64,000 nt of DNA from Isoetes taiwanensis. Taxonomy: Eukaryota; Streptophyta; Lycopodiopsida; Isoetales; Isoetaceae. The DNA is taken from positions 310,001 through 374,000 of the forward strand of contig JAJEKV010000286.1 in the NCBI GenBank assembly GCA_021234155.1. The letters are read 5' to 3'. The notes under the pieces were generated by a model. The model did not search any database, was not told where the DNA came from, and worked only from the letters and a program-made list of their open reading frames with translations. Below, in pieces: positions 5,423 through 55,999 of the stretch (positions within the stretch are counted from its first letter, which is position 1; the number at the start of each line of letters is the position of its first letter). The position numbers and the translations under genes were made by a program.

Positions 5423-6040
5423 CTACTTCTTTAGCTCCGTCAACTCTTCAGTTGACATTCTATAAGGTGCCTTGCTTGTTGGCTTCGTCCCTGGCTCAAG
5501 TGCTATTTCACACTCGACTCCTCTATAGGGCGGAAGATGCTTGATCTCATCAGGAAACAAGTCATGAAATTCCTTGATCAACTTCGCTATAGCAAGCTTA
5601 AGGAGATAGGCCACTTGCTGCTTCCTTATGCACTTAAGCAACTTTTCACTACTCATGCATTGCATGATTGGGGTTACTTCTTTACTTGTAATCTCGATGA
5701 CCTTGCCCTCTGGAGTTGTTAAGGTCACCTTGTGTTTCCCACAATCGATGAGTGCTCCTGCTGGCCCAAGGTATTCCATTCCAATAATCAGGTCATACTT
5801 GCCTATATTCATGACTTCTGCTCCCAATGCCACATTAATGCCTGGCAAGTCTATATTGAAGTTTATTCTCTTCCCCGCTGTATGCCTGACTGCCCCATTA
5901 GCTAACACAACTGGCCTGGGCTTGGACTTCAACGGCTTTAGCTTCAACATGCTTACCATCTTAGGTGGCCTCTTTGCCCTAGGAGTCTATCAGCACTATG
6001 AAGGATTTCTCTTTGGCTTTCCCGGTTATTGAAATTACCT
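5423..6040 (-). pseudogene. Aspartic protease and PR-RT linker (broken)
   Basis: A minus-strand frame of 178 codons holds YDLIIGMEYL, the second conserved block of retrotransposon aspartic proteases, and then a linker leading to the RT start (YRMSTEELTELKK). The first protease block, with the catalytic aspartate, reads FIVLIDS near 5975-6010 but is followed by an in-frame stop. A nonsense codon (TAG at 5423-5425) cuts the polyprotein just before RT. Confidence 0.8.
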
Positions 6041-13224: not shown

Positions 13225-13425
13225 TTATAATTCTTTCTTAATGAACTTAGCAAGCCTCATATCCTTTGGCATACACGTTACTCTTTTTGCATGCATAGCA
13301 CATGCAATTGAGTCTTCGAAGCTCTGCACTATATGTTGCTCCGCCTCTGTAACGCTAAAGAGCATATATCGTCCGTAACTCGCTCCGAGTTGTCGAACTC
13401 CTGTAGAACTTCCCTTGTGAGTCAT
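13225..13425 (-). CDS. Small ORF1b overlapping the ORF1 stop
   Basis: A 66-codon frame whose ATG overlaps the ORF1 stop as ATGA (13422-13425). It runs through VRQLGASYGRYMLFSVTEAE and ends KFIKKEL. It is either a separate short product made by termination-reinitiation, or the real C-terminus of ORF1 cut off by a frameshift. I recognise no family. The reading frame looks plausible but is short. Confidence 0.4.
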   Translation of the reverse strand: MTHKGSSTGVRQLGASYGRYMLFSVTEAEQHIVQSFEDSIACAMHAKRVTCMPKDMRLAKFIKKEL

Positions 13426-14474
13426 GCAAAGGAGGCTCTAGGGATGAGGAAGCCGTAGCTCTGCTGAAAATGCTTGTTGGAGTCCGCATGTCTCTTCATT
13501 GGCTTCTTTGGTGGCTCTGGTTTCTCAGGTGGCGGTTTGAGCGTGTTCTTCTTCATCGGCCGACCTCCTTCCACAAAAGTCACCTTATGCTCCTCGTAAT
13601 ATTTAGAGTATTCTTCGTACATTTTCATGAATGAATTATACTCTTTCAGCTCCTTCCGGTACTTGAGGTCTTGCTTGAGCACGTAGGACTCCCTTTGTGG
13701 TTTCGGCTTCTTTGTACTGTCACTGGGATGCTTTGGCGACGGCCACCTAGGGTATGGGGGTGCTCTTGCTACAACGTCCTCCTCCTCCTCCCGCGCTGTG
13801 TTTGAGGGTCCGGAGCCTTCAGCTGGGTCGGGTCTTCTAGCTTCTCTATCCGACTCTGTGTCGGATGAGGATGGCGATTTCTCCGGGTCTGGCTCCTGGA
13901 TCGTTACTCCCTTGGCCGGAGTCTTCTTCTTTTTTGGTTTCTCCACCGGTCGCTCTGGATCCTTCCCCTTCTCCGCTCTCACTCTCTCCCGCTCTTCCCT
14001 GCGCTTCTTCTTTTCCTCCCTCCTCTGTTTCTTCTCTTCTTTCTTCTTGCGCCGCTCCTCCTTTTCTTTGCGGCGCTCCGCCTTGGTTTTCTTCTTCTCG
14101 CCTTCCTCCCTTTTTCTCTTTCCTTTCTTGTGCGCTTGCTCTGTGTTAGTGCCGTCTCCAAAAATTTCTCTCTCCAGTTCCCTCTTCAACTCCTCGGCTG
14201 CGTCCATATCAACTTCGACCTCCTCTGATGCCTCGAGATCTTGGGCTGTTCTTCCTTCTTCGGTGTTAGGGTTAGGCTGATCCACCTCTTCGGCGTTAGG
14301 ATTAGGTTGATCTACCTGTTCCTCCTCTTCGGCATTAGGATTAGGTTGATCTACATGTTCCTCCTCTTCGGCATGCTCTCGGGATGGTCGGGCCTTCTGT
14401 TGAACGGCCCGCTCTTGGGCGCTCACATATCCATCAGGCATAACCTTGCGGGCGGTCTGCTTCGTTCGAGCCAT
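13422..14474 (-). CDS. Pre-gag ORF1: histone H3 tail-like N-terminus on a charged, coiled-coil protein
   Basis: An intact 350-codon minus-strand frame between the primer site and gag. Residues 1-10 are MARTKQTARK; after Met removal the first nine residues equal histone H3 residues 1-9, including R2, T3, K4, T6, R8 and K9. Position 10 is Val, not the H3 Ser. Then come three acidic DQPNPNAEE-type repeats (about residues 40-75), a very Lys/Arg/Glu-rich probable coiled coil with nuclear-import-like clusters (about 115-195), a Ser/Asp patch and a basic, Pro-rich C-terminal part. It lacks the histone fold. Family knowledge: the H3 tail is read by PHD, chromo and Tudor modules and modified at K4 and K9. 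Inference: a nuclear histone mimic carried by the retrotransposon. Expression is unknown. Confidence 0.75.
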   Translation of the reverse strand: MARTKQTARKVMPDGYVSAQERAVQQKARPSREHAEEEEHVDQPNPNAEEEEQVDQPNPNAEEVDQPNPNTEEGRTAQDLEASEEVEVDMDAAEELKRELEREIFGDGTNTEQAHKKGKRKREEGEKKKTKAERRKEKEERRKKKEEKKQRREEKKKRREERERVRAEKGKDPERPVEKPKKKKTPAKGVTIQEPDPEKSPSSSDTESDREARRPDPAEGSGPSNTAREEEEDVVARAPPYPRWPSPKHPSDSTKKPKPQRESYVLKQDLKYRKELKEYNSFMKMYEEYSKYYEEHKVTFVEGGRPMKKNTLKPPPEKPEPPKKPMKRHADSNKHFQQSYGFLIPRASFA

Positions 14475-14692
14475 GTCTTTGTTTGACGAATTTCGAGCTC
14501 TGGCGCCTGAAGATCGTTTTCTTGGGCGAGCTGTTCTCCGGGGGTGCTGGGGGCAAAATGGGAACCCTAACTTTCTATTTATAAGAAGGGAAGATTTAGG
14601 GTTTGGACCTGCAATTTCATATGGGGAAAAAAAAAATCTAGGGGCATTAGTGAAGATATGAGAACATTGGTTTAATCAGCCAGAAAGTGTCT

Positions 14693-15192: not shown

Positions 15193-16804
15193 TATGACGT
15201 CCCCTACTCCCTATACGATGCACACATCGTATCTGAAGGAGGAGCCTTCCCCCTGGCAGCTGCACTGACAGGGGCCATCCACCTGACTCCACTCCCAGTG
15301 GAATGAGCCAGCAGGGGAAGAGTGGATGTGTCATTCACCCGTCTTCCATCGGGTCGACCTATCTGCGGAAGCGCGAATAAACAAACATGAGCACAAACTA
15401 ACAGTATACATAAATACAACTACCTCGTAGGGTGGACATAGCGTCAACATCACAAGAGATAACAACGTCAACATAAACAATAACTGAAAGGGGGAATCCT
15501 ACCCAAGGCTCAGACTCAAGGGGGTGTGACTGACGGCTTGGGCCTTTAGAGATCATTGCAGACAGAATTCATGGCAATGGATTTGGCTGGTATAGATCAT
15601 GGCTTGGAGTAGTCCACTCCATCCGCCCCTCCCATGCACACTTTGCAGAGTAGGTTGAAAGATATTGGGATCTGACCATAGCCTGCCAGGTGAATAGCCA
15701 GAGGGGCTACTACTACTGGGTTGCATCTCCCCAGCCCCGATGAGGCAGGAGGGAAGTCACCTCCCTTCCGGAAGCATCCATGCCCTTCACAGGTGGCTAG
15801 AGAGCCACTGCTCTTATTCGACTTGAACTCACTGGAAGGTGACGCATCACCCCACGAGTGTCGAGCTCATGCCTTGCCCACGCAGTGGCAAGCCATTAAG
15901 CCTAGTCCGCATAGACCCCCGGTAGGCCTTACACACCAGAGGGATCAGTCTGTGTAGGGACAAGTTCTTCCTTATCATCCGGTCTGATCCCGCCACCCAC
16001 AACCAGGCGGACTCCTGTGCATGGGCCGCATGTAATTGGGAACTACTGGTGCTAACTAGGATCATATGCTACACAGCTTTAAGTCTCTACCCCCCTTCCC
16101 AAGACATGAAAGGCACAGAATGAAATACATCCAACATCATGGAACTGAAATAGAGAATATCATCAAATCAATCTATCTACACAACAGAGTTAGATTGATT
16201 AGTTAGGGCTTATGACCTCGGGATCTATAAGGCTTCTAGAGTTGATCTAACACACCAAATCGGCCTATTGCCATGCCCAAAGACGGATTTGCACAACAGA
16301 ACAACTAGATACCTGCTCCTTGACCCGCCGCTGATCCTCGGAAGGCGTCCATGATCTTGATCTTGCTGGAGATGGCTGCGAATCGGTAATCTGTTGGGCA
16401 ATTCCGGCTTCTCGGAGCTCAGCAATGCGGATTGGAGTCCTGCCTTGGCCGAAATGGCCCAAGAGAACCCTAAATGCGAGGATGGGAAAGAAGCTCTAGA
16501 AAACCCTAATGCGAAATTGAAAAGAGAGTTAGGGTTTAGGGTTTTAGCCCTTATATAGACCCTTTTTAGGTTAGGTTAACCATTTGGCCAAATGGGTTCA
16601 TGCCATTTGGAAAATGGGGTTCAAGGGGGTTTTGTTGTGTATGTTTTATTAACATGCACAACATTCGAGGTTGCCCCCTAGGTGCCTCTTGGTCCCTAGG
16701 TGCAATGTTCTTCGACTCTCAAGTACATGTCATCTATGACATGTACGTGTGACGTGGCAGTATAATATACGTATTAGGAGCGTATATTATGCTGGAACGT
16801 CACA
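15193..16804 (-). repeat. 5' LTR (right copy) with promoter
   Basis: Direct repeat of 225-1836. The inner end reads TATGACGT instead of TGTGACGT, a single change. Minus-strand transcription should start within it. Confidence 0.9.
16528..16559 (-). promoter_or_regulatory. LTR core promoter: TATA box and telo-box
   Basis: On the minus strand TCTATATAA (16551-16559) is followed at once by CTAAAACCCTAAACCCTAAC (16528-16547). Telo-boxes (AAACCCTAA) sit near the transcription start of many plant housekeeping genes and are bound by TRB and related Myb proteins. Confidence 0.6.
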
Positions 16805-26487: not shown

Positions 26488-27457
26488 TATAATAAAAAAA
26501 TTTGAAAATGGTAGCCATTCTAGTAAAAGCTACAAGTTTTCCTCCATTTCCATTTAACTAACTTTTTTTATGTTTGAATCTTCTACACGCCCGCAAAATT
26601 AAGTGTGTGCATGGCTAGAAACATTCAAATTTAGACCTTGAGCATCTTGATACTTTGCAAAGCCTCGATTACTATTAATCATGGTGTGGTCTCCATGTTG
26701 TTAACATGATGTTTTTTGGTTTTTTTTTTAAGGTTACAAAGCAAGACTCTAATGGGACGGAGATAAAACCCCCAAAATCTCATCCTTATCTCATCATCAG
26801 ATAATATGGACACTAAATACTGATCAACAATCTATCTTTAATCTCCCGAAGCACTTGATCTCGGTAGAGGAGACATTCTTAAATACTAAATGACACCGAC
26901 TCTTCCAAATGACCCAGTAGGCCAACGAACGTGTGATATGGAACGTTAATTTCTTGAGTCATGATGTCAAAGCAATATAATATAATGTCTTGACCAAGCA
27001 CTGACATTTGAAAGGCCTACTATTACTAGTGTGGTCTCCATCACTAGTGTGGTCTCCATCTTTTTAAAGATGATGATACAACCCCTTTACCAAGTAGAAG
27101 GAGCGACATATAATTTATTCCAAAAAATGCGTATGGAGACTAAGTAAATCCCAACTTCAGAACGTTTATTCTTTCGAACTCCCAACGAATTAAAAGCCTG
27201 AATTGTCTTAATTTGAAACGTTTTTTCTTTGGACTGTGACATCGGTTGGTACTTGGTAGGCCAGTGTACATAATTCATATATGGACAAAATACCTCTACC
27301 AACATGCTGTATGGTGCAGATTAATGCATGATCTAAGACTGCTATGCTTCCTTGTGTCAATTTTTGATATGGAAATTTATTTCTTTAGAACATCCCACCA
27401 CAGTATCACGCCTCTCTATAGTAATTGACAAAAAAACCACCGGCAGAATCCTTCAGA
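26488..27457 (+). other. Upstream region of the intact receptor kinase
   Basis: Matches 41990-42939 and 51855-52807. No separate gene is seen. I cannot point to a convincing TATA box. Confidence 0.45.
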
Positions 27458-30112
27458 ATGTATATTGTGTCAAAGCTCCTTTTGTTTTTTCGCAACCTGC
27501 TCAGATCATCAACTATGCAGATTACCTTGTGTCTCCTTCTCTTCCTCCTACAAATTCCTGTTGCATATCTCCAAAACACTACCATAGATTTTACAATAAA
27601 TTCAATCTGTGGTTCCATCTCTCCTGTTTACGACACAAGCTACAAACTTTTAGCCAATGACAGATTTTGCGTTGGTTTCTCTAGCCTATTCCAAAATAAA
27701 CTTGTTTTTGGGATTTTTGCAAACTGGCAAGGAGATGCACAAATGATATGGTATGCTGATGTCCCAGACCCAGTAGAGCTAGGTTCTCGTCTTTTATTCA
27801 ATCCGAACAAAGTGTTAGTTTTGCAGCCACGGGACAGCAATCAAACAGTCTGGGCTGCTAATGCAGCAAATGTGACGAGTTGGAAATTAACAGATATTGG
27901 AACTTTCGTTCTCTATGATGGTCAAAATAATTCGATATGGCAAAGTATGGACTATATGACTGACACTCTATTCATGGGGCAATCATTCACTAGCACTTCT
28001 GAGATCATGAAAGTGAGTGATTCTCGGCTTGCATTCGCTGCTTATGACTGTAAAATTGAGTTCTCTGATCCTAACCTCAGTTGGAAGCCACAGCTACAGT
28101 CGACCAGCACTGGTGATGTATTTCTTAGCTTCAACAATTCTGCTGTCTTATTTTCATTTACATTCTGGACTTATGAAGATGGTCGAGATTTATCAAATGC
28201 TTTTATAAGATTACATCCTCAGGAGATCTCCATATATACCCTTCTCAACGGCAAATGGGATGTACAACTTATTTCTTTCACCAGACTTACATTAAACAAT
28301 CCGCAAGTAACAGTTGATATTAATACCTGCGGACCAGTACATTGGTCTCGCGAGTTACTTTCTTCTTTAGAACGGGTACTTTGTGGCCTCTTGATCTTAC
28401 TTCTCTTTTCAGAATGCCTATTTCTCTTCATTGGTGCTCTTACTGCATACTCAAAAATACTCCTACTCATTATTGCTACCATTCCTCCATCTTCAATTGC
28501 TGTTGCCCTCATGATTTCCCAGCAGTACCTGATGCCCAATAAGTTTCATACTCCTTATGCAATACATGCTATAATTCTTACCATCATCATGTTGCATGTA
28601 GTTAATATAATTCTATGTTGGATTATTTACGCAAGAGCACTTTCTAATCTGACTGTTAGAAACAATTTTATTGGATTGCTTCTAATCAACATGCTTTCCC
28701 TTTTGAGTGCACACCTGGGGGCATATTTCTTTCGCTCTCTTAGTACAAATGATTTAAACGTGAAGAAATTGGGGTATTTTTTCATCCCTGGCTTGTTGTC
28801 TCATACAAACACTATATGCCTCATTGTGGAGACATTGCCGGGCCGTAAATGGTTTGGATCTGATGCAAGGATCATTATGGTAATTATCTCCAACATCAGC
28901 ATAGGTGCAATATCTGGTTTTCAAATCTACTGGAATTCTGTTCATCCATATCAGTACTTGCATAACCATATAATCTGGGTTTGTTTACTAGCTGCAAATG
29001 GGATACTTATACTCTTATCCCTATGGGGATGCTATGCCCATGACTTGATGACAGGAAGATCTGTTGTATCAGCAAGGTTAAGTTCTTTGAAGACTTGGTG
29101 TGGTAGACAAAGGAAAAGGATTGTGGTTTGGTTAGTTTCTTGCCTTGTGGGGAGGTCTAAACCGCTTAAAGATCCAGAGGATGATATCACTATGTCATTG
29201 TCTTATTTTAGGTATGAGGAGCTGGAAGTAGTTACAGACGGTTTTAGCAGATTGTTAGGTCAGGGGGGCTTTGGTGGAGTGTACAATGGAACACTTTTGT
29301 CTGGAAGGAAAGTGGCAGTGAAGAAACTAGAGAGCGCTAGCCAAGGCAACAAAGAATTCAAGGCAGAAATAAGAATACTTGGGAGAGTTCACCACCTAAA
29401 TTTGGCTAGCTTATTGGGATTTTGCGCTGAGGGTCCTAATAGACTCCTTGTATATGATTTGATGGCCAATGGCTCTCTTGACAAATGGATATTTGAAGAT
29501 GGTCCCTTTCTGGATTGGCCAACAAGATTGAACATTCTAGTTGGTACAGCTCGAGGATTGGCTTACCTCCATGAAGAATGTGATCCTAGAATAATACACT
29601 TGGATGTAAAACCTCAAAACATTTTACTAGATGAATCCTTTGGAGCAAAAGTCTCAGACTTTGGCCTATGCATGTTCTTGTCCAAAGATGAGAGCTCTTT
29701 GGTACTCACTAGAATGATGGGAACAATGGGCTACTTGGCACCAGAACGGGTACAAGGCTTGGTGACAGAAAAGAGTGACGTTTATAGTTTTGGAATAGTG
29801 ATGCTAGAGGTTATTAGCGGCAACAGAGGCTACAAAACTCTGGAGTTAGAGGAAAATTTTCAACCTTTTCGAACTTGGGCTATACAGAGGATGCATGAGA
29901 ATAGCTTAATAGATCCACGACTGCGTCATTGTGTTAATGAGGCGGAAAGCAAAAGGATAATCGAAGTGGCATTATGGTGCACTAGATATGATCCAAACAA
30001 GCGACCTTCAATGGGCAACGTCGTAAAGATGCTGGAGGGGAGTGCAGAAATCCCGTATTGCACTTGGACAGAGGAAATCACTCTGTTTTCTATAGATGAA
30101 GCTGGAGAGTAG
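27458..30112 (+). CDS. Lectin / seven-transmembrane / kinase receptor-like protein, copy 1 (intact)
   Basis: A single intronless frame of 884 codons from the ATG at 27458 (the open frame begins at a TTG upstream). Residues 20-39 (MQITLCLLLFLLQIPVAYLQ) form a signal peptide, so the internal Met20 is an alternative start. Residues about 80-185 are B-lectin-like, with the S-locus-type block IWQSMDYMTDTLFMGQ. Then come about seven hydrophobic segments: 307-330, 333-355, 367-392, 404-425, 438-459, 471-492 and 504-529. Last is a complete kinase: glycine loop GQGGFGGVY 601-609, Lys622 in VAVKK, HLD 714-716 with KPQN, DFG 734-736, APE 761-763. HLD makes it a non-RD kinase. Lectin receptor kinases normally have one membrane span; here a multi-span block replaces the usual SLG/PAN region. 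Inferred role: plasma-membrane sensor of a sugar or glycan signal. The ligand is unknown. Confidence 0.9.
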   Translation: MYIVSKLLLFFRNLLRSSTMQITLCLLLFLLQIPVAYLQNTTIDFTINSICGSISPVYDTSYKLLANDRFCVGFSSLFQNKLVFGIFANWQGDAQMIWYADVPDPVELGSRLLFNPNKVLVLQPRDSNQTVWAANAANVTSWKLTDIGTFVLYDGQNNSIWQSMDYMTDTLFMGQSFTSTSEIMKVSDSRLAFAAYDCKIEFSDPNLSWKPQLQSTSTGDVFLSFNNSAVLFSFTFWTYEDGRDLSNAFIRLHPQEISIYTLLNGKWDVQLISFTRLTLNNPQVTVDINTCGPVHWSRELLSSLERVLCGLLILLLFSECLFLFIGALTAYSKILLLIIATIPPSSIAVALMISQQYLMPNKFHTPYAIHAIILTIIMLHVVNIILCWIIYARALSNLTVRNNFIGLLLINMLSLLSAHLGAYFFRSLSTNDLNVKKLGYFFIPGLLSHTNTICLIVETLPGRKWFGSDARIIMVIISNISIGAISGFQIYWNSVHPYQYLHNHIIWVCLLAANGILILLSLWGCYAHDLMTGRSVVSARLSSLKTWCGRQRKRIVVWLVSCLVGRSKPLKDPEDDITMSLSYFRYEELEVVTDGFSRLLGQGGFGGVYNGTLLSGRKVAVKKLESASQGNKEFKAEIRILGRVHHLNLASLLGFCAEGPNRLLVYDLMANGSLDKWIFEDGPFLDWPTRLNILVGTARGLAYLHEECDPRIIHLDVKPQNILLDESFGAKVSDFGLCMFLSKDESSLVLTRMMGTMGYLAPERVQGLVTEKSDVYSFGIVMLEVISGNRGYKTLELEENFQPFRTWAIQRMHENSLIDPRLRHCVNEAESKRIIEVALWCTRYDPNKRPSMGNVVKMLEGSAEIPYCTWTEEITLFSIDEAGE

Positions 30113-30539
30113 TGCAGAAATTCATACCGCATCTGGGCATTGAAAACGCTCTGTGTCTTCTGTAGACAGAGATGAATATGAACGCAGTTTATCAACTTCA
30201 GTGACATTTTCAAGGACATCCGCACCTATTTATTTGCCCTAACTTTTCAAGGATCAACATATATGAAAGAGTTTACAGCTAGCTATTCATACCTTGGAAT
30301 TCCAAGGCGGCTGCTGTTGATGATGCAGGGTCTTTTAGGCTACACAAACAAACTGAGAAGAGCTCTAGATCTTGGCGACGCCCCAATCTCGTGACACTAT
30401 CACTGTTATTTCCTTTCTACAAATGCATTATTATCGCTTGTTGATCCAAATTCCATTCGCTCCAAATTTAGATTTATTTCATTAAATTTCCTTCTTCTTC
30501 CCCGGTCTTGTGTTTTTCTCTCTTTGTTTAATGGTTTTT
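30113..30539 (+). other. 3' flank of receptor kinase copy 1
   Basis: Conserved in all three units (45596-46018, 55459-55886). It probably holds the 3' UTR. A GAGAGTAGTGCAGAAAT-like piece repeats sequence just before the stop. E1 or E3 follows at the same T run each time. Confidence 0.5.
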
Positions 30540-30831
30540 GGGTTGCCCCTAGGGGGGCAAACGCTCATTTATGTGGGTTTTTGGCATATTCAAGCATATG
30601 CCAGCATATGCCTAAGATATTCTAGTGACTGCTACAAACCGGCATTTGCAAGAAATTCGTGATCAGCCCACGTTGTCCGAAAAGTGCTATTGGAACCGCA
30701 TAACCGGAATGCAATTTGACGTTGTGGGTTTAGGCTCTGCACATTTTCCAATCTGTCAATTCCAATCAAAATAATCAGTCCATGGCACCCAACAAGCTGC
30801 AGCTTCAAATTTAAATACCTCCTCTGTTCCG

Positions 30832-31036
30832 GTGCCCCATTTCGTTTTAGAACTGATGCGAGATACGGTGATTTTATGCACAGGGCTTACTTATGACAGA
30901 TCTAGTATTGAGCAATGGTTTGAGCAAGGGCATAATACATGTCCAGCAAATATGGGGGAGCTTGAGACCCAAGATTTGGTCCCAAATCATACTTTGCGAA
31001 GATTAATTCAGGATTGGTGTGTGGCAAGTCGGGGAT
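30832..31036 (+). pseudogene. U-box E3 ligase fragment captured by E1
   Basis: The plus strand reads LELMRDTVILCTGLTYDRSS, then IEQWF, CPANM and PNHTLRRLIQDWCVA, the full U-box signature of plant PUB proteins. The remainder of the gene is missing and the preceding sequence has no start in a gene context. It is a sense-oriented fragment inside E1. Confidence 0.85.
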
Positions 31037-31224
31037 AGAACGGATTCCAACTCCGAAGCTTCCCCTTGATCCAGCAAATCAGATCCATGCTCGGGGAAGT
31101 ACCGAAGGTGGAAAAAATTTGAGAAAGATGAAGAATTTGGCCAAAGAATCCTTCAGAATCCTTCAGAATCCTTCCTTCAGAATTCTGCCTATTCTCCACG
31201 TATGGAGGACACTTCAGATGAAGC

Positions 31225-31460
31225 CAGAATCCTTCAGAATGTATATTGTGTCAAAGCTCCTTTTGTTTTTTCGCAACCTGCTCAGATCATCAACTATGCA
31301 GATTATCTTGTGTCTCCTTCTCTTCCTCCTACAAATTCCTGTTGCATATCTCCAAAACACTACCATAGATTTTACAATAAATTCAATCTGTGGTTCCATC
31401 TCTCCTGTTTACGACACAAGCTACAAACTTTTAGCCAATGACAGATTTTGCGTTGGTTTC
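31225..31460 (+). pseudogene. Captured 5' part of the lectin receptor kinase in E1
   Basis: Nearly identical to the first 200-plus bases of the receptor kinase gene (27440-27690), from just before the ATG to GCGTTGGTTTC. From the ATG at 31239 an open frame of 112 codons keeps the signal peptide and the first part of the ectodomain, then ends in unrelated sequence at 31577. It matches copy 1 (TTTTTTCGC) better than copy 2 (TTTTTGCGC). Confidence 0.85.
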
Positions 31461-32019
31461 CATTCTATAAGTTTATTCAGAGAACATATCTTCTGCATCC
31501 TATTTTGTTGGGTTGGGTATTTCCATATACTATTTGAGAAATGGTGTGTTGTTTTGTTCAATCCATTAAACAGTTGAAGTTTTTTGCACTAACACATCTT
31601 TTTATAGGCAGTGCGGGTTGTGTGGGTCTACCACATAACTTGAGCAGTAAATTCTGCTGCACATGTATGGGGAGCGATTTATCTAGAAATAACTAGTAGG
31701 TTTATAGATTATAATGTCACAAGAGACTCATGGATGGCACAATAAAAAAAAAGGGGTTAATTGGCACATCATTTGGAATAGGAGACATTTAAATTTTCTT
31801 ATCTAAGAAAACCATAAGATTTAACCATGTGATGCATGTGGGTGGCTTTGCTTGCTTTTGCGGAAGGATGGCACAACAACCATCATGCAATTGAGTACTC
31901 TGCAAGACATGGTTTAGAGTCTTTGGTGACTTCATCCAACATGGTATATGATATGCTTATTCTTTGTTAAAATGAAAAATTTGGCTTCCAATTTGATGTT
32001 GGAATCTATAAAATCACAA

Positions 32020-32246
32020 TCTAAAGTGGAAATAGATGGTGCACACTTCCAGCATTCTTCCAAGATATTACATTCAAAACAGTACATTGAAGAACTTGAA
32101 ACTGTAAGTTTTATGGTAAGCTATGTTCTTGTGTTTAGTCTACTACTGTAATTTTATGATAAATGTGCAGGTTGTGGATGTTCCCAATGTTAGCGGGGAA
32201 GACATTGGAGGCCTAGATAATGTTAAGAAAGAACTTAGCGCATAGG
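32020..32246 (+). pseudogene. CDC48-like AAA ATPase fragment captured by E1
   Basis: The exon at 32171-32246 reads VVDVPNVSGEDIGGLDNVKK, the start of the second ATPase region of CDC48/p97, with one change in the usual VSWEDIGG. It is preceded by an intron with GT (ACT|GTAAGT, about 32105) and AG (TGTGCAG|GTTGTG). The exon ends at a stop, and the ATPase motifs are absent. Confidence 0.75.
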
Positions 32247-32309
32247 TGGACTCGGAGAACAGATCTGGCTACTTTATGTACGTAAAGCTTGACTCAAAGG
32301 TGCAAGTGA

Positions 32310-33246
32310 GAAAAGATGGATGTTATTGACCTCCAGGATGGGCTAGGGTTTCTCATAAACACCGTCAGCATGGTTTTCCAAAATGTAAGCAACGATGAGT
32401 TGGTATTTGATTGCCTTAATGTTCACCATGAAGATGTTAGAGACATTATCTATCACATAGTTTATGAATGCACCAAACAAAAGGACCGTGAACTATGCAG
32501 ACGGATCTAGATCTCGATGTGTATAATGGACTTGATTCTTTTGTAGTTTTGCCTGACCCCATTAGTTCGCTATTTTCCTTCTATGGAAGAATGGCAGAAG
32601 CAAATCATGCACTTGCGAGAGTCTCAAACCCAAGTCTATATGGAATTATTGATATCTATGCAAATTTTGTTGAAGGACAGATATAATGCAATGCATAGTG
32701 CTGGTAAGATGCCAAACAGATTTACTTTCTTAAGCATCCTAACATTATGTTGCAACACAGTTGCCATAGAACCTGCCAACACGCCAGAAAAATTCATGAG
32801 CAGATTCTTGCCTATAGGCTTCAATCAAATGTGGTGGAAAATTGTCTTGTTGACATGTATGGCAAGTGTGGTCGATTGGTTGAAGCACATTGAACTTTGG
32901 ATAGCTTGCCAAACCAAAATGTATTCTCTTGGGGTGCCATGATTCCAAACGTGTTGATCATGAAGAGAGCCACCTTGCTCTAGAGTATTTTGAAGTCATG
33001 CAGCAAGACGGCATAGAGCCATATAAGTTCACATTCGCTAGCATCTTAAAAGCCTATGGTAGCATAAGTGCCTTAACTCAAGGTAGATACTTTAATTGTC
33101 AAATTCTGAAAGCTAATCTTCAATGTAATATGGTCGTGGGAAATAGCCTTGTAGATATGTATTCTAAATATGGTAGTTTGAAAGAGGCACATAGAATTTT
33201 TATCATATTGCCAAAACGGGATGTTATTGAATTCAATGATTGCTAG
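32310..33246 (+). pseudogene. PPR-protein fragment captured by E1, plus an unidentified piece
   Basis: From about 32540 the sequence codes in shifting frames for pentatricopeptide motifs, for example FTFASILKAYGS, NMVVGNSLVDMYSKYGSLKE and AHRIF, with several frameshifts. Just upstream, 32316-32510 is a 64-codon open piece (MDVIDLQDGLGFLINTVSM) that I do not recognise. Plant organelle RNA-editing or RNA-processing PPR proteins are the likely source. Confidence 0.75.
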
Positions 33247-33758
33247 CTATAGATGTGTGTTACATACTAATTTCATTCTAAACATGTAAATGGTCCTATG
33301 CATCTCCCAATAAATAGATGTCAAAAGCATGTTCTTAATTGAAAACGATTCAGACATTTTTTAGCAAACGAGATATTAAAACTACTTTTACCTAAGAAAG
33401 AGAATTGAAGGTTTCTTTCCAACGTTATAACAAATCTATACCATTAAATTTAAGGGCTACATAATGTCCTCCCTCGAGGCGTTATGGCCATGTGGTTGTG
33501 AGAAGGTGCATATTATTCCAGACAAGGTAAGCTCAAAGGTCTGGATTCTTGATATAGTTGTAGAGCTTGTCGTGAGAGGGCATAGATTATGAAAAACAAA
33601 GTAAGCCCAAAAGGCTCTGGTAGCTCAAAAGGATCCGAATTCTTGATATAGTTGTAGAACCAATGATGTATTAAAGCAAAACAAAAGGAAAAAATACAAA
33701 AAGAAGTGCCCATCAATTTACTTTTGCATCCTTGTAGATAATGAATTCAAAGTAAAAA
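33247..33758. other. E1 interior, non-coding
   Basis: No gene seen. It is matched at 48722-49230 in unit 2. Confidence 0.5.
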
Positions 33759-34941
33759 CAAGGTGCTGCGCACGGAGGGTTGCCCTTCATGGTCGGAGAG
33801 TGAAGTGGCTTAAATCATAGTTCAAAGTCATGTTTTGACATCATAGATTAGAGTATCGACATGGAACGGGTCTCTGAACTTGGGCCTACTGGACCTGCTA
33901 GTCTAGGATATTTAACTGGTTAAGTAGTCAGGAAAATCGGTATGAATAGTAGAGTCGTATGGCTTGGTCATGGCAATACGAATTTTTAGGGAATCAACAA
34001 TTAGCATTATATATGCCTGTATATCTACGTTTTCAAGGAATTCAATTCGATCAGCTAGGTCAAGAGGCTTTTTGCAGATACTCTATTGAGTTTAGAGATG
34101 TCGATGGGTAAGGGGAAGCGGACCATTTTGGTCAACAACTGCCAAAGGTAGACTCTTAAGTCCCATCTTCAATGGTTTTATCTTCCTACTCTAGTTTTCA
34201 TTCTGATGCCTGTCATGTAAACTCTGTTTCTTTAATGGAGTCTTTCCGATGACTATTTTTATTTTGGCGCCAAATGCTGCAGGGGTAGTTGCAGGATCCA
34301 GCAAATAGAGGAGCTTATTTTTTGTGATGTTGATAATTCACAAATCAAGGGAAGCATTATATAACCTAAGAGATTATTATTATTATTTTACTCCTTGCAT
34401 AGTTAAAAAATTCAATAGTGTGTTGCAACCTGCAAAGACTTCCGTAGGTGAATTATGTTGTCCACCAAAATCCTTGTGCAAAAAGCTCGGCACCATCAAA
34501 AAAGGAATATTTCACGAAAGGCTTGCAATAAACTCAAACGAAAGCTACGAATCTATCTGAGGCCTTGCAAAAAAATCCATAGAAAGCCCTAAGGTATGCA
34601 CTTAGTGCAACTTAAAATCAACTTGTTCTATGCAAGCTGTGGTATGCAATAGCCAGGTGAAGTTTAGAACATTCTCCTTCCATCCACAAATTTCAATAAT
34701 GTTGTGTAAGTTTAGAACATTCTCCTTCCATTCACAAATTTACATAATGCTGTGAAAAAAATGCACATGTTAAAACCTTAGTCCTAGTCTTGCAGATTTT
34801 CAACTACTTGTTGCAGGAAACCAAGGCAAAAGATTCAGTTCCCCATTTGTTTCAGTTCGATAAGCTACAAAATGTTCAAGGATATATGAAGCACCCTTGA
34901 TTAACAATGACAAAAAGATCAATACATAAAGGATAACATAC

Positions 34942-40988: not shown

Positions 40989-42939
40989 GAGTAAATCATG
41001 TTTTGAGTAAGTATAATATAGATGTTCTTTGTGTGATTGGCATTGCTCATATATTCATCCTTCTTAGAGCTATGCAATGGACTTAGTTGAGTCTAAATTT
41101 CACATCAGTCAAAAACATCATATACCTAGTAAAGTGGAATTCGTTAAAGAAGCAAGTGATTCATCTTTGTAAAGTTCAATTGCTAGTAGGAATCATGTGG
41201 AATAGAAGAAGGGTAATGGTTTTCTCTCATAAATATCTGCAATCTTGGATTTGATCTAAGCTTAGAAAGCAACTAATAATCGTGATCTTGATTAGGAATT
41301 GTAGAACACTCTTTCTTGCTCGAAGTACCAAGATAATATTTTGCTATGTGACTACCCCCGATTCTAGCTCTGACTGCTCCTACCTCATCTCTCTCAGTTT
41401 GAGTAAACTATTCCCGTTGTTTATTTCCCAATTCCCATACCCAATTATGTATACTTAAACTTGGTAACCTAGGTTGGCTGGTGGCTGGTTGGTGTGTCTT
41501 TTTAGAGTTCTCTTTGTTCAGAATATTAGATTGTTTTTAGTTACTTTGTCTTAGAAATTTTTAAAGCGTATCAGAATCCAGACAATGCTAGCTCATAAAA
41601 TTGACATTGTATATCATCAAAATTACATGCATTTGACATCACACATATCCTAAATAGTACAAAGAATATTTGCATGGAACAATAAGAATCAACAACTTCA
41701 TGTATGTCCAAAGTTGTTGGATGTAAAAGAGATAATTGTATCTTCATTACAAATATAATTTAATTGATCTTTCGTAGAACGTCAAAAAAATTTCAAGTAG
41801 TTGCGAGTCATTATAGATTCTAATACAATCAACCATCTACAGTCCCCATAATAAATACATTTGACTTTGTACAGTTTCTAAGTAATACAAATACTATTTA
41901 GCTAGGGACTAATATATAGTGATATTTAGCTAGGGTCTAGGATTTAATATACAACTAGATTTTATGTAAGTGAAGATGTAATATATAATAAAAATTTTTG
42001 AAAATGGTAGCCATTCTAGTAAAAGCAACAAGTTTTCCTCCATTTCCATTTAACTAACATTTTTTTACGTTTGCATCTTCTACATGCCCGCAAAACTAAG
42101 TGTGTGCATTGCTAGAAACATTCAAATTTAAACCTTGAGCATCTTGATACTTTGCAAAGCCTAGACTACTATTAATCATGGTGTGGTCTCCATGTTGTTA
42201 ACATGATGTTTGTTTTTTTTTTGAAGAACGTACATAATTCATATTAAATACTCAAAGAAGTTACAAAGCAAGACTCTAATGAGACAGAGATAAAACCCCC
42301 AAAATCTCATCCTTATCTCATCATCAGATAATATGGACACTAAATACTGATCAACAATCTATCTTTAATCTCCCGAAGCACTTGATCTCGGGTAGAGGAG
42401 ACATTCTTAAATACTAAATGACACCGACTTTTCCAAATGACCCAAGTAGGCCAACGAACGTGTGATATGGAACGTTAATTTCTTGAGTCATGATGTCAAA
42501 GCAATATAATATAACCTCTTGACCAAGCACTGACATTTGAAAGGCCTACTATTACTAGTGTGGTCTCCATCTTTTTAAAGATGATGATACAACCCCTTTA
42601 CCAAGTAGCGACATATAATTTATTCCAAAAAAATGCGTATGGAGACTAAGTAAATCCCAACTTCAGAACGCTTATTCTTTCGAACTCCCAACGAATTAAA
42701 AACCTGAACTGTCTTTCTTTCGACTGTAACATCGGTTCGTAGGCCAGTGTACATAATTCATATATGGACATATACCTCTACCAACATGCCGTATAGTGCA
42801 GATTAATGCATGATCTAAGACTGCTATGCTTCCTTGTGTCAATTTTTGATATGGAATCTTATTTCTTTAGAACATCCCGCCACAGTATCACGCCTCTCTA
42901 TAGTAATTGACAAAAGAACCACCAGCAGAATCCTTCAGA
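40989..42939. other. Upstream region of receptor kinase copy 2
   Basis: Matches unit 1 on both sides of the unit-1-only block. No gene seen. Confidence 0.5.
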
Positions 42940-45595
42940 ATGTATATTGTGTCAAAGCTCCTTTTGTTTTTGCGCAACCTGCTCAGATTATCAACTATGC
43001 AGATTACCTTGTGTCTCCTTCTCTTCCTCCTACAAATTCCTGTTGCATATCTCCAAAACACTACCATAGATTTTACAATAAATTCAATCTGCGGTTCCAT
43101 CTCTCCTGTTTACGACACAAGCTACAAACTTTTAGCCAATGACAGATTTTGCGTTGGTTTCTCTAGCCTATTCCAAAATAAAATTGTTTTTGGGATTTTT
43201 GCAAACTGGCAAGGAGATGCACAAATGATATGGTATGCTGATGTCCCAGACCCAGTAGAGCTAGGTTCTCGTCTTTTATTCAATCCGAACAAAGTGTTAG
43301 TTTTGCAGCCACGGGACAGCAATCAAACAGTCTGGGCTGCTAATGCAGCAAATGTGACGAGTTGGAAATTAACAGATATTGGAACTTTCGTTCTCTATGA
43401 TGGTCAAAATAATTCGATATGGCAAAGTATGGACTATCTGACTGACACTCTATTCATGGGGCAATCATTCACCAGCACTTCTGAGATCATGAAAGTGAGT
43501 GATTATCGGCTTGCATTCGCTGCTTATGACTGTAAAATTGAGTTCTCTGATCCTAACCTCGGTTGGAAGCCACAGCTACAGTCGACCAGCACTGGTGACG
43601 TATTTCTTAGCTTCAACAATTCTGCTGTCTTATTTTCATTTACATTCTGGACTTATGAAGATGGTCGAGATTTATCAAATGCTTTTATAAGATTACATCC
43701 TCAGGAGATCTCCATATATACCCTTCTCAACGGCAAATGGGATGTACAACTTATTTCTTTCAACACACTTACATCAAAGAATCCGCAAGTAACAGTTGAT
43801 ATTAATACCTGCGGACCAGTACATTGGTCTCGCGAGTTACTTTCTTCTTTAGAACGGGTACTTTGTGGCCTCTTGATCTTACTTCTCTTTTCAGAATGCC
43901 TATTTCTCTTCATTGGTGCTCTTACTGCATACTCAAAAATACTCCTACTCATTATTGCTACCATTCCTCCATCTTCAATTGCTGTTGCCCTCATGATTTC
44001 CCAGCAGTACCTGATGCCCAATAAGTTTCATACTCCTTATGCAATACATGCTATAATTCTTACCATCATCATGTTGCATGTAGTTAATATAATTCTATGT
44101 TGGATTATTTACCATAAGGGCACTTTCTAATCTGACTGTTAGAAACAATTTTATTGGATTGCTTCTAATCAACATGCTTTCCCTTTTGAGTTCACACCTG
44201 GGGGCATATTTCTTTCGCTCTCTTAGTACAAATGATTTAAACGTGAAGAAATTGGGATATTTTTTAATCCCTGGCTTGTTGTCTCATACAAACACTATAT
44301 GCCTCATTGTGGAGACATTGCCGGGCCGTAAATGGTTTGGATCTGATGCAAGGATCATTATGGTAATTATCTCCAACATCAGCATAGGTGCAATATCTGG
44401 TTTTCAAATCTACTGGAATTCTGTTCATCCATATCAGTACTTGCATAACCAAATAATCTGGGTTTGTTTACTAGCTGCAAATGGGATACTTATACTCTTA
44501 TCCCTATGGGGATGCTATGCCCATGACTTGATGACAGGAAGATCTGTTGTATCAGCAAGGTTAAGTTCTTTGAAGACTTGGTGTGGTAGACAAAGGAAAA
44601 GGATTGTGGTTTGGTTAGTTTCTTGCCTTGTGGGGAGGTCTAAACCGCTTAAAGATCCAGAGGATGATATCACTATGTCATTGTCTTATTTTAGGTATGA
44701 GGAGCTGGAAGTAGTTACAGATGGTTTTAGCAGATTGTTAGGTCAGGGGGGTTTTGGTGGAGTGTACAATGGAACACTTTTGTCTGGAAGGAAAGTTGCA
44801 GTGAAGAAACTAGAGAGCGCTAGCCAAGGCAACAAAGAATTCAAGGCAGAAATAAGAATACTTGGGAGACTTCACCACCTAAATTTGGCTAGCTTATTGG
44901 GATTTTGCGCTGAGGGACCTAATAGACTCCTTGTATATGATTTGATGGCCAATGGCTCTCTTGACAAATGGATATTTGAAGATGGTCCCTTTCTGGATTG
45001 GCCAACAAGATTGAACATTCTCGTTGGTACAGCTCGAGGGTTGGCTTACCTCCATGAAGAATGTGATCCTAGAATAATACACTTGGATGTAAAACCTCAA
45101 AACATTTTACTAGATGAATCCTTTGGAGCAAAAGTCTCAGACTTTGGCCTATGCATGTTCTTGTCCAAAGATGAGAGCTCTTTGATACTCACTAGAATGA
45201 TGGGAACAATGGGCTACTTGGCACCAGAACGGGTACAAGGCTTGGTGACAGAAAAGAGTGACGTTTATAGTTTTGGAATAGTGATGCTAGAGGTTATTAG
45301 CGGCAACAGAGGCTACAAAAGTCTGGAGTTAGAGGAAAATTTTCAACCTTTTCGAACTTGGGCTATACAGAGGATGCATGAGAATAGCTTAATAGATCCA
45401 CGACTGCGTCATTGTGTTAATGAGGCGGAAAGCAAAAGGATAATCGAAGTGGCATTATGGTGCACTAGATATGATCCAAACAAGCGACCTTCAATGGGCA
45501 ACGTCGTAAAGATGCTGGAGGGGAGTGCAGAAATCCCGTATTGCACTTGGACAGAGGAAATCACTCTGTTTTCTATAGATGAAGCTGGAGAGTAG
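42940..45595 (+). pseudogene. Lectin / 7TM / kinase receptor-like protein, copy 2 (one frameshift)
   Basis: Very close to copy 1 along its full length, with the same signal peptide, lectin block, membrane block and kinase motifs. A one-base gain near 44112 (TTTACCATAAGGGC where copy 1 has TTTACGCAAGAGC) shifts the frame in the third membrane segment and stops at 44130. The downstream frame 44159-45595 keeps the remaining membrane segments and the whole kinase without any other stop. It may make a truncated secreted/membrane ectodomain, or be a young pseudogene. A sequencing error at this one site cannot be excluded. Confidence 0.85.
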
Positions 45596-46309
45596 TGCAG
45601 AAATTCATACCGCATCTGGGCATTGAAAACGCTCTGTGTCTTCTGTAGACAGAGATGAATATGAACGCAGTTTATCAACTTCAGTGACATTTTCAAATCC
45701 GCACCTATTTATTTGCCCTAACTTTTCAAGGATCAACATATATGAAAGAGTTTACAGCTAGCTATTCATACCTTGGAATTCCAAGGCGGCTGCTGTTGAT
45801 GATGCAGGGTCTTTTAGGCTACACAAACAAACTGAGAAGAGCTCTAGATCTTGGCGACGCCCCAATCTCGTGACACTATCACTGTTATTTCCTTTCTACA
45901 GATGCATTATTATCGCTTGTTGATCCAAATTCCATTCGCTCCAAATTTAGATTTATTTCATTAAATTTCCTTCTTCTTCCCCGGTCTTGTGTTTTTCTCT
46001 CTTTGTTTAATGGTTTTTGGGTTGCCCCTAGGGGGGCAAACGCTCATTTATGTGGGTTTTTGGCATATTCAAGCATATGCCAGCATATGCCTAAGATATT
46101 CTAGTGACTGCTACAAACTGGCTGTTGCCAGTAAATTCGCGGTCAGCCCTGTTGTCCGAAAGTGCTATTGGAACCGCATAACCGGAATGCAATTTGACGT
46201 TGTGGGTTTAGGCTCTGCACATTTTCCAATCTGTCAATTCCAATCAAAATAATCAGTCCATGGCACCCAACAAGCTGCAGCTTCAAATTTAAATACCTCC
46301 TCTGTTCTG

Positions 46310-46579
46310 GTGCCCCATTTCATTTTAGAACTGATGCGAGATACGGTGATTTTATGCACAGGGCTTACTTATGACAGATCTAGTATTGAGCAATGGTTTG
46401 AGCAAGGGCATAATACATGTCCAGCAAATATGGGGGAGCTTGAGACCCAAGATTTGGTCCCAAATCATACTTTGCGAAGATTAATTCAGGATTGGTGTGT
46501 GGCAAGCTCTGAGGATAGAACGGATTCCAACTCCAAAGCTTCCCTTGATCCGAAATCGGATCCATGCTTGGGGAAGTAG
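46310..46579 (+). pseudogene. U-box fragment in E1, unit 2
   Basis: Same U-box as 30832-31036 (LELMRDTVILCTGLTYDRSS). The frame stays open further, to 46579. Still only a fragment of a PUB gene. Confidence 0.8.
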
Positions 46580-46698
46580 AAGGTGGAAAAATTTGAGAAA
46601 GATGAAGAATTTGGCCAAAGAATCCTCGAATCCTTCAGAATCCTTCCTTCAGAATTCTGCCTATTCTCCACGTATGGAGGACACTTCAGATGAAGCCA

Positions 46699-46932
46699 GA
46701 ATCCTTCAGAATGTATATTGTGTCAAAGCTCCTTTTGTTTTTTCGCAACCTGCTCAGATCATCAACTATGCAGATTATCTTGTGTCTCCTTCTCTTCCTC
46801 CTACAAATTCCTGTTGCATATCTCCAAAACACTACCATAGATTTTACAATAAATTCAATCTGTGGTTCCATCTCTCCTGTTTACGACACAAGCTACAAAC
46901 TTTTAGCCAATGACAGATTTTGCGTTGGTTTC
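46699..46932 (+). pseudogene. Captured receptor-kinase 5' part in E1, unit 2
   Basis: Copy of 31225-31460. The ATG at 46710 opens a 112-codon frame to 47049 that keeps the signal peptide. Conservation of this frame between the two E1 copies may simply reflect recent duplication. Confidence 0.8.
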
Positions 46933-47489
46933 CATTCTATAAGTTTATTCAGAGAACATATCTTCTGCATCCTATTTTGTTGGGTTGGGTATTTCCATAT
47001 ACTATTTGAGAAATGGTGTGTTGTTTTGTTCAATCCATTAAACAGTTGAAGTTTTTTGCACTAACACATCTTTTTATAGGCAGTGCGGGCTGTGTGGGTC
47101 TACCACATAACTTGAGCAGTAAATTCTGCTGCACATGTATGGGGAGTGATTTATCTAGAAATAACTAGTAGGTTTATAGATTATAATGTCACAAGAGACT
47201 CATGGATGGCACAATAAAAAAAAAGGGGTTAATTGGCACATCATTTGGAATAGGAGACATTTAAATTTTCTTATCTAAGAAAACCATAAGATTTAACCAT
47301 GTGATGCATGTGGGTGGCTTTGCTTGCTTTTGGGGAAGGATGGCACAACAACCATCATGCAATTGAGTACTCTGCAAGACATGGTTTAGAGTGCTGGCAG
47401 CTTCATCCAACATGGTATATGATATGCTTATTCTTTGTTAAAATGAAAAATTTGGCTTCCAATTTGATGTTGGAATCTATAAAATCACA

Positions 47490-47715
47490 ATCTAAAGTGG
47501 AAATAGATGGTGCACACTTCCAGCATTCTTCCAGGATATTACATTCAAAACAGTACATTGAAGAACTTGAAACTGTAAGTTTTATGGTAAGCTATGTTCT
47601 TGTGTTTAGTCTACTACTGTAATTTTATGATAAATGTGCAGGTTGTGGATGTTCCCAATGTTAGCGGGGAAGACATTGGAGGCCTAGATAATGTTAAGAA
47701 AGAACTTAGCGCATA
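47490..47715 (+). pseudogene. CDC48-like fragment in E1, unit 2
   Basis: Same intron-containing piece as in unit 1 (VPNVSGEDIGGLDNVKK at 47642-47715), followed by a stop. Confidence 0.7.
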
Positions 47716-47779
47716 GGTGGACTCCCGGAGAACAGATCGGCTACTTTATGTGCGAGAAAAACGGCTCTTGAAGGCAAGT

Positions 47780-48721
47780 GAGAAAAGATGGATGTTATTG
47801 ACCTCCAGGATGGGCTAGGGTTTCTCATAAACACCGTCAGCATGGTTTTCCAAAATGTAAGCAACGATGAGTTGGTATTTGATTGCCTTAATGTTCACCA
47901 TGAAGATGTTAGAGACATTATCTATCACATAGTTTATGAATGCACCAAACAAAAGGACCCGGAACTATGCGAGGGCGGATCTAGATCTCGATGTGTATAA
48001 TGGACTTGATTCTTTTGTAGTTTTTTGCGACCCCATTATTTCGCTATTTTCCTTCTGTGGAAGAATGGCAGAAGCAAATCATGCACTTGCGAGAGTCTCA
48101 AACCCAAGTCTATATGGAATTATTGATATCTATGCAAATTTTGTTGAAGGACAGATATAATGCAATGCATAGTGTTGGTAAGATGCCAAGCATTTACTTT
48201 CTTAAGCATCCTAACATTATGTTGCAAACACGGTTGCCATAGAACCTAACCGCCAACACGAAAAAATTCATGAGCGCATTCTTGCCTATAGGCTTCAATC
48301 AAATGTGGTGGAAAATTGTCTTGTTGACATGTATGGCAAGTGTGGTCGATTGGTTGAAGCACATTGAACTTTGGATAGCTTGCCAAACCAAAATGTATTC
48401 TCTTGGGGTGCCATGATTCCAAACGTGTTGATCATGAAGAGAGCCACCTTGCTCTAGAGTATTTTGAAGTCATGCAAAGAAGGCGGCATAGAGCCATATA
48501 AGTTCACATTCGCTAGCATCTTAAAAGCCTATGGTAGCATAAGTGCCTTAACTCAAGGTAGATACTTTAATTGTCAAATTCTGAAAGCTAATCTTCAATG
48601 TAATATGGTCGTGGGAAATAGCCTTGTAGATATGTATTCTAAATATGGTAGTTTGAAAGAGGCACATAGAATTTTTATCATATTGCCAAAACGGGATGTT
48701 ATTGAATTCAATGATTGCTAG
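47780..48721 (+). pseudogene. PPR fragment and unidentified piece in E1, unit 2
   Basis: Counterpart of 32310-33246, with its own small indels (for example at 47955 and 48480) that break the frame in other places. Confidence 0.7.
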
Positions 48722-49700
48722 CTATAGATGTGTGTTACATACTAATTTCATTCTAAACATGTAAATGGTCCTATGCATCTCCCAATAAATAGATGTCAAA
48801 AGCATGTTCTTAATTGAAAACGATTAGGAGGCATTTTTTAGCAAACGAGATATTAAAACTACTTTTACCTAAGAAAGAGAATTGAAGGTTTCTTTCCAAC
48901 GTTATAACAAAATCTATACCATTAAATTTAAGGGCTACATAATGTCCTCCCTCAGGTTATGGCCATGTGGTTGTGAGAAGGTGCATATTATTCCAGACAA
49001 GGTAAGCTCGAAGGTCTGGATTCTTGATATAGTTGTAGAGCTTGTCGTGAGAGGGCATAGATTATGAAAAACAAAGTAAGCCCAAAAGGCTCTGGTAGCT
49101 CAAAAGGATCCGAATTCTTGATATAGTTGTAGAACCAATGATGTATTAAAGCAAAACAAAAGGAAAAAATACAAAAAGAAGTGCCCATCAATTTACTTTT
49201 GCATCCTTGTAGATAATGAATTCAAAGTAAAAAAAAGGAAGGTGCAGGTGGAAAAATAAGTGCCCACAAACACTTATGAATAATGACGTCTGATAAAAAT
49301 GAAAAAATGCAAGAACCACAAGCTGCATGAGTGCTCTGATGGATAATGACTTCTACAGAAATTATGTGCAGTGAAGTGTCCACTTGGAGCAAGTACACAG
49401 ATCTTTAATTTCATAAGTCCTTGAGCAAGAGAATCTGACCTTTATCTCAATAATATCATGCAAAGTTCCTTCACCATGTAGATTGCGAACAAAATAAAAA
49501 ACAAGAAGAATGTCCAAATCCCAATTCGTATATCCTTATTCCTTTCTCCCTAACAATAGGTAAATGGTTGAAGGAGACAAATCGGATGAAAAGAATAAAT
49601 TAGCATTCAAGCTTGATCTTAAGGAACAATCAAACAAAAAACATGAAAATAAATGACGAAAAAGAAACCATGAAAAAACACTTTCGTGCACCAGAGGGCA
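48722..49700. other. E1 interior, non-coding, includes the empty E2 site
   Basis: No gene seen. GTAAAAAAAAGG near 49227-49240 is the site into which E2 inserted in unit 1. Confidence 0.5.
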
Positions 49701-55458: not shown

Positions 55459-55999
55459 TGCAGCAATTCATACCGCATCTGGGCATTGAAAACGCTCTGT
55501 GTCTTCTGTAGACAGAGATGAATATGAACGCAATTTATCGATTTCAGTGACATTTTCAAGGACATCCGCACCTATTTATTTGCCCTAACTTTTCAAGGAT
55601 CAACATATATGAAAGAGTTTACAGCTAGCTATTCATACCTTGGAATTCCAAGGCGGCTGCTGTTGATGATGCAGGGTCTTTTAGGCTACACAAACAAACT
55701 GAGAAGAGCTCTAGATCTTGGCGACGCCCCATCTCGTGACACTATTACTGTTATTTCCTTTCTACAAATGCATTGTTATCAGCTTGCTGATCCAAATTCC
55801 ATTCGCTCCAAATTTAGCTTTATTTCATTAAATTTCCTCCTCCTTCCCCGGTCTTGTGTTTTTCTCTCTTTGTTTAATGGGTTTTTGGGTTGCCCCTAGG
55901 GGGGCAAACCCTTGTTTATGTGGGCTTTTGGCATATCCTAGGTATATGCTAGAATATCCCTAGGATATGCTAGTGACTGCTCAAAACCTCCTATTTCCT

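Follow-up and report, generated by a model that had tools for sequence, protein, structure and literature searches.

The receptor kinases of plants fall within the TKL (tyrosine kinase-like) group and are usually taken to be proteins with one membrane span; plants also possess receptors in which more than one span is joined to a kinase, such as the histidine-kinase receptors for ethylene (ETR1) and cytokinin (AHK). Fusions of a seven-transmembrane (7TM) block with a kinase are, according to the available part of PMC12716839, known from oomycetes and amoebozoans and had not been found in other eukaryotes before that paper, which describes them in choanoflagellates and sponges and whose authors knew of no functional characterisation of any such protein. 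Canonical G protein-coupled receptors (GPCRs) are absent from plants in the view of the authors of PMC12839735, as given in the accessible section of that article, and a literature search of open-licence PubMed Central (PMC) papers found no plant precedent for a seven-span receptor kinase. The survey of S-domain proteins in PMC3616866, in its available passages, gives their architecture as S domain, transmembrane region (TM) and kinase; spans were omitted from its architecture analysis, span prediction being not always accurate, and this suggests that genes of the kind described below could be overlooked. This article describes one such gene, at positions 27458-30112 of a 64-kb window of the Isoetes taiwanensis genome assembly (contig C801:310001-374000), and the gene family around it. 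Its product, P0001, is used as the reference for residue numbers throughout. We consider it probable that the P0001 family consists of polytopic lectin receptor kinases which descend from an SD2-5 / SD-2b ancestor, in which the membrane region was exchanged for a seven-span block, and which then spread and diversified.

The sequence-only reading of this locus had proposed a lectin ectodomain, about seven hydrophobic segments and a complete Ser/Thr kinase in one uninterrupted frame, and each of these parts was found again. The frame comprises 884 codons with zero internal stops. The Pfam Pkinase match is complete (residues 598-857, E 3.1e-46) and the kinase retains K622, E637 and DFG, while no Pfam family matched between it and the B_lectin domain. 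The description of the gene as a single exon holds at the level of the open frame and no further. Met20 (27515) is a start conserved throughout the family, being invariant in the lectin+TM alignment (n = 15), so the true product probably begins there and has 865 amino acids (aa), not 884; the signal peptide is a prediction from hydropathy. The parts of the gene are as follows.

27458-30112, + strand: intact gene, open frame of 884 codons (translation)
27515-27574, + strand: predicted signal peptide, residues 20-39 (hydropathy and conservation; Met20 and Ala36 invariant)
27575-28351, + strand: ectodomain, residues 40-298, with the Pfam B_lectin match inside it
27743-27994, + strand: B_lectin match, residues 96-179 (Pfam, E 4.9e-8, above cut-off)
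28355-28432, + strand: span 1, about residues 300-325 (hydropathy, AlphaFold)
28448-28516, + strand: span 2, about residues 331-353 (hydropathy, AlphaFold)
28553-28627, + strand: span 3, about residues 366-390 (hydropathy, AlphaFold)
28664-28732, + strand: span 4, about residues 403-425 (hydropathy, AlphaFold)
28769-28837, + strand: span 5, about residues 438-460, with a conserved N-T-I-x-L ... L-P motif (hydropathy, alignment)
28871-28933, + strand: span 6, about residues 472-492 (hydropathy, AlphaFold)
28970-29038, + strand: span 7, about residues 505-527 (hydropathy, AlphaFold)
29039-29227, + strand: juxtamembrane segment, residues 528-590, with a predicted basic helix (model, charge counts)
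29228-30052, + strand: Ser/Thr kinase domain of SD-2b type, non-RD (HLDVKPQN) (Pfam, database search)

A search of the whole assembly (1,658,258,908 bp in 1110 contigs; 53 matches listed, 36 stretches read) yielded 14 further full-length, stop-free frames of the same kind on 14 other contigs (C1091, C963, C1080, C90, C992, C1105, C981, C1067, C974, C942, C943, C1079, C988, and C2), and the contigs that carry full-length frames reach 29.5 Mb in size. Counted from the first Met, the 14 frames encode 841-885 aa; aligned with P0001 (alignment A2, 15 rows), they are 37-97% identical to it with their parts in identical order, and within the block the identity is 22-38%, the near-copy L009 excepted. 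The glycine loop, the VAIK lysine, the alpha-C glutamate, HLD (non-RD), and DFG are kept in all 15 members. Because the genome holds 15 full-length open frames with the lectin, seven-span and kinase layout, chance is excluded as the origin of the frame, and the data support the view that P0001 is one member of a diversified family and not a single odd gene. A further six matches (L031-L036) proved to be SD2-5 kinases of the ordinary one-span form, and they serve below as controls from the same genome. Three matches on C1027 and C1035 (L027, L041, and L042) represent a further seven-span subfamily with partial or broken frames and with long tyrosine-rich stretches in the predicted outer loops.

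The family is also rich in damaged members. About 28 stretches are partial or interrupted, which is more than the full-length ones; 18 of them were examined as open frames and the remainder are known as rows of the match table. Such members were excluded from A2 and from the hydropathy and charge counts; five (L014, L024, L026, L027, and L030) were kept in the kinase tree, seven (L014, the second frame of L020, L024, L025, L027, L028, and L029) in a 22-row alignment of the block, and three (the second frame of L020, L024, and L025) in the pairs used for pN/pS (the ratio of nonsynonymous to synonymous differences per site). Two of the damaged stretches lie in the window itself, where self-comparison finds one unit three times, at 26488-33763, 41984-49238, and 51851-55985, with 96-97% identity. 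The gene at 27458-30112 (copy A) is the sole intact one of three copies there, and the other features of the duplication are as follows.

42940-45595, + strand: copy B, with a single frameshift near 44110, where span 3 ends (alignment to copy A)
52808-55458 (about; ends approximate), + strand: copy C, with five insertions or deletions and a premature stop (alignment to copy A)
31225-31460, + strand: 236-bp repeat of the gene's 5' part, 99.6% (self-comparison)
46697-46932, + strand: 236-bp repeat of the gene's 5' part, 99.6%, inside the second duplicated unit (self-comparison)

The sequence-only reading had taken the three copies as evidence that the layout is kept. There are indeed three, but as recent tandem duplicates, two of them broken, they lend little independent support, and we rejected them as proof of the layout; the independent paralogs on other contigs replace them. 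Since the assembly was built with nanopore reads, according to the available part of PMC8566536, a paper that also mentions time-of-day expression, some of the lesions in copies B and C could be sequence errors. The broken copies and the roughly 28 damaged stretches favour the view that the whole family is an artefact or a set of pseudogenes, produced by a chance frame, read-through of two neighbours, assembly error, or a foreign contig. Against it stand the 14 additional full-length frames on contigs of up to tens of megabases, a low ratio of nonsynonymous to synonymous change in the kinase in all eight pairs compared (see below), the nearness of that kinase to plant SD2-5 kinases among the matches listed and in the tree, and the pentatricopeptide-repeat (PPR) and TrkH-type genes that surround the locus. 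We regard this explanation as very improbable, and a chance frame, read-through and a foreign contig were rejected on the frames, the kinase ratios, and the kinship.

Hydropathy supports seven spans. P0001 has six segments within residues 300-530 that pass a threshold of 1.6; the seventh (from 439), which is span 5 and the weakest of the set, passes 1.2, a threshold at which one ectodomain segment (from 70) passes as well. When the 15 aligned members are averaged without four near-duplicates (11 kept), hydropathy has seven peaks with heights of 1.65-2.3 at residues 300-318, 334-352, 372-390, 404-422, 440-458, 472-490, and 506-524; the only other mean peaks above 0.9 are the signal peptide (20-38, 1.46) and one kinase segment (1.09), and the lectin part has no mean peak of 0.9 or more. 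N-terminal to the kinase, single members (n = 15) show 6-8 peaks with the threshold of 1.6 and 7-9 with that of 1.2, with the surplus in the ectodomain, in the juxtamembrane part, or from the splitting of one span. All six one-span SD2-5 controls have one peak of at least 1.6 directly before the kinase, with one extra peak further towards the N-terminus in two of them at 1.6 and in five at 1.2. Loop charges in the 15 members, counted with borders set from P0001, fit a topology with the lectin outside and the kinase inside: the fraction of Lys plus Arg is 0.22, 0.28, and 0.26 in the inner loops and 0.15 in the C-terminal tail, and 0.05, 0.08, and 0.03 in the outer loops. The density of sequons is 25.7 per 1000 residues in the ectodomain as compared with 7.5 in the cytoplasmic part. 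Seven spans with the N-terminus out are thus supported by hydropathy and loop charge, with dissent from two counts that are considered below.

The kinase places the family beside known plant proteins. A tree of 42 rows (20 from the family, six SD2-5 kinases of the same genome, and 16 hand-picked from 120 listed matches) contains a branch with 100/100 support (200 bootstrap trees) that separates all 20 rows of the family from the 22 other rows; the tree was rooted at its midpoint, and to speak of a clade assumes a root outside the family. With that assumption the family kinases are supported as one clade next to the one-span SD2-5 lectin kinases. A database search with residues 290-884 matched 3093 proteins, and among the 120 listed the lower ranks consist mostly of SD2-5 proteins, with long multi-kinase proteins above them; these matches and the tree agree in assigning the kinase domain to the SD-2b type. 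None of the 120 matches listed covers the block or more than 61% of the query; the number of hydrophobic segments at 1.6 is three at most in these matches and seven, signal peptide included, in P0001. Searches without the kinase found no relative with residues 1-600 and none at E <= 0.01 with the lectin+TM alignment of 15; both were limited to the roughly 8000 candidates with most words in common, and neither listed even an SD2-5 lectin domain, so that distant relatives can have been missed. Absence elsewhere thus means absence from the protein database as composed, which may contain no Isoetes proteins.

SD2-5 / SD-2b proteins, which are G-type lectin receptor kinases, share with the family the signal peptide, the B_lectin ectodomain, and the kinase type, identity over the kinase half reaching 55% among the matches listed, and the six examined also have a stop-free frame from lectin to kinase. 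They differ in having a PAN region and a single span where the family, a separate clade, has seven spans. PAN matches at E <= 0.01 occur in five of the six one-span controls (two above and three below the Pfam cut-off), one control having none, and in none of the five family members scanned at full length. By eye, the family tracks the SD2-5 proteins as far as the end of a second lectin-like module, after which span 1 begins. Together these observations argue that the block was substituted, by all signs once, for the PAN region and the single span.

The kinase is strongly conserved. In eight pairs the ratio of nonsynonymous to synonymous substitution rates (dN/dS) is 0.05-0.19 for the kinase in every pair, 0.20-1.23 for the ectodomain, and 0.17-1.92 for the block. 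The pN/pS values, pooled over six overlapping, non-independent pairs of one subfamily, are 0.20 for the kinase (purifying selection in 6/6 pairs, p from 0.003 to 7e-17), 0.21 for inner loop 2, 0.30 for the juxtamembrane segment, 0.5-0.7 for spans 1, 3, 5, and 7 and inner loop 1, 0.71 for the ectodomain, 1.36 for span 6, and, in the fastest parts, 2.29 for span 2, 2.67 for outer loop 3, and 3.05 for outer loop 1. A strongly conserved kinase is thus supported, as is, on few counts, rapid change of the ectodomain, outer loops 1 and 3, and span 2, of which relaxed constraint may be the cause. The family is most likely a lineage-specific, diversifying receptor repertoire. A different explanation would see a functionally ordinary lectin receptor kinase in which the lectin senses and the spans are an elaborate device for anchoring or dimerisation under weak constraint. 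It draws on a near-neutral pN/pS for the whole block (about 0.95, summed from the table), on the ectodomain value of 0.71, and on the low identity of the block. It is disfavoured because spans should be lost from a mere anchor, whereas the 15 members, despite the low identity, retain all seven spans and the pattern of loop charges, and span 5 has invariant positions (N451, I453, L455, L460, and P461). We judge it unlikely.

Structure prediction gave weak models. The AlphaFold model of full-length P0001 (15 rows) draws all seven span helices, with low confidence and with a break in the fifth, and gives the lectin a predicted local distance difference test (pLDDT) of 65-85 per ten-residue block over residues 41-180; its mean pLDDT is 50.9, with the spans mostly below 50, which makes the check that had been proposed on this product too weak for use. 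A model of the block of L010 (22 rows; pLDDT 67.0, predicted template modelling score 0.53), also weak, shows the seven span helices too; a proline that is almost invariant interrupts the fifth, and a juxtamembrane helix of 37 residues follows the spans. In a Foldseek comparison GPCRs, a crowded class in the PDB, occupied 41 of the 50 rows listed (best E 0.14, best query-length template modelling score 0.32); a channel, designed bundles, and vinculin tails scored equal to or above them, and a second structural comparison gave no telling match. At E <= 10 the block matched no 7TM family of Pfam in any of the 15 members taken singly, which leaves room for remote kinship, and SWEET-type MtN3 was not among the Pfam matches; residues 290-576, searched singly or as an alignment of 15, found no meaningful Pfam family and, at E <= 10, no PDB sequence. 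None of three profile comparisons detected an internal repeat. That the block serves as a transporter or channel, with the lectin and kinase reading or gating its activity as in a transceptor, appears to us quite improbable, more so than the anchor.

Several observations count against the reading of a polytopic receptor family, in addition to the excess of damaged members, the near-neutral block and the low confidence of both models. The family is known here from genomic sequence and models. Two of the 15 frames (L013 and L022) are without 9 and 14 residues of the kinase C-lobe, and of four relatives scanned for B_lectin one passes the Pfam cut-off and three fall below it (E 7e-7 to 1.7e-6). 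The stub before span 1, expected outside, is as basic as the C-terminal tail (0.148 compared with 0.154), and sequons number 0 in 463 outer-loop residues and 6 in 368 inner-loop residues. The fast parts owe their ratios to 2 to 5 synonymous changes each, in non-independent pairs; inner loop 3 (1.43) and span 4 (1.15) are also elevated, outer loop 2 is not (0.85), and one pair of the six, L019-L022, shows an excess of change in the block (p = 0.048, uncorrected). The sub-cut-off PAN matches, the partial stretches, the basic stub, and the pooled block value each weaken a single line of evidence, and the seven spans, the kinase clade, and the conserved kinase stand. A polytopic lectin receptor kinase, as proposed on the first inspection of the locus, remains the best reading, resting on 15 full-length frames on 15 contigs, seven mean peaks, the loop charges, and one kinase clade.

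Other features of the window are of separate interest. The frame at 13422-14675 (- strand) encodes, from a Met at 14474, a product of 350 residues that begins MARTKQTARK, which we take to be the first residues of histone H3, and continues as an acidic, lysine-rich sequence with no Pfam match; it is a possible H3-tail mimic. A piece of a TrkH/HKT-type cation transporter lies at 58330-59283 (+ strand; Pfam TrkH 1.8e-16), a PPR fragment adjoins copy A at 32929-33246 (+ strand), and 4353-5986 (- strand) has matches to retrotransposon reverse transcriptase and RNase H and weak protease matches. A 1.6 kb direct repeat of 94% identity at 227-1836 and 15195-16804 is possibly formed by the two long terminal repeats of one element, 15 kb apart.

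Beyond plants, the GPCR-TKL/K and GPCR-TK fusions share with the Isoetes family a seven-span block followed by a C-terminal protein kinase (PMC12716839, available part). As they are described there, they are set apart by the plant-type lectin ectodomain and plant SD-2b kinase of the family, and because of these parts and of a block without detected relatives, an independent origin of the fusion in the family is the most likely one. The GPCR-PIPK (phosphatidylinositol phosphate kinase) proteins of Dictyostelium (RpkA) and oomycetes also have a seven-span block fused to a kinase, on the available parts of PMC3206951 and PMC12716839; theirs is a lipid kinase, whereas that of the family is a Ser/Thr protein kinase. 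Within plants, the spans of the family exceed in number those of ETR1 and AHK, which are two-component histidine kinases with other domains.

The course of events and mode of action that we judge most likely can be outlined. An SD2-5 / SD-2b receptor kinase would have swapped its PAN region and single span for the seven-span block, and the new gene would then have multiplied and diversified. The protein is predicted to hold a secreted N-terminal lectin outside the cell, followed by seven spans, a basic juxtamembrane helix, and the kinase inside; its parts, its spans, their charge-based orientation, the kinase clade, the conservation of the kinase, and the fast outer parts are supported at the sequence level. 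We infer that a variable external cue could be read by the ectodomain together with the outward side of the bundle, that the bundle or its dimer would rearrange and shift the juxtamembrane helix, that the helix would switch the non-RD kinase, and that the kinase may phosphorylate cytoplasmic kinases, like other plant receptor kinases. Non-RD kinases are often immune receptors, and a role in defence or environmental sensing is conceivable on the same footing as ligand sensing by the bundle. A bolder version, which we advance tentatively and consider rather less probable than the exchange itself, holds that plants independently evolved a heptahelical sensor wired to a receptor kinase, in which the outer face of the bundle binds diverse small molecules or peptides and of which Isoetes keeps a fast-evolving repertoire; it would be a plant counterpart of the chemosensory GPCR families that bypasses G proteins.

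The family departs from the one-span form expected of plant receptor kinases. If the reading given here is true, the family would represent a further design for a surface receptor in plants and a 7TM-kinase fusion of separate origin, and it would open to experiment the way in which a polytopic bundle can act as the switch of a plant kinase.
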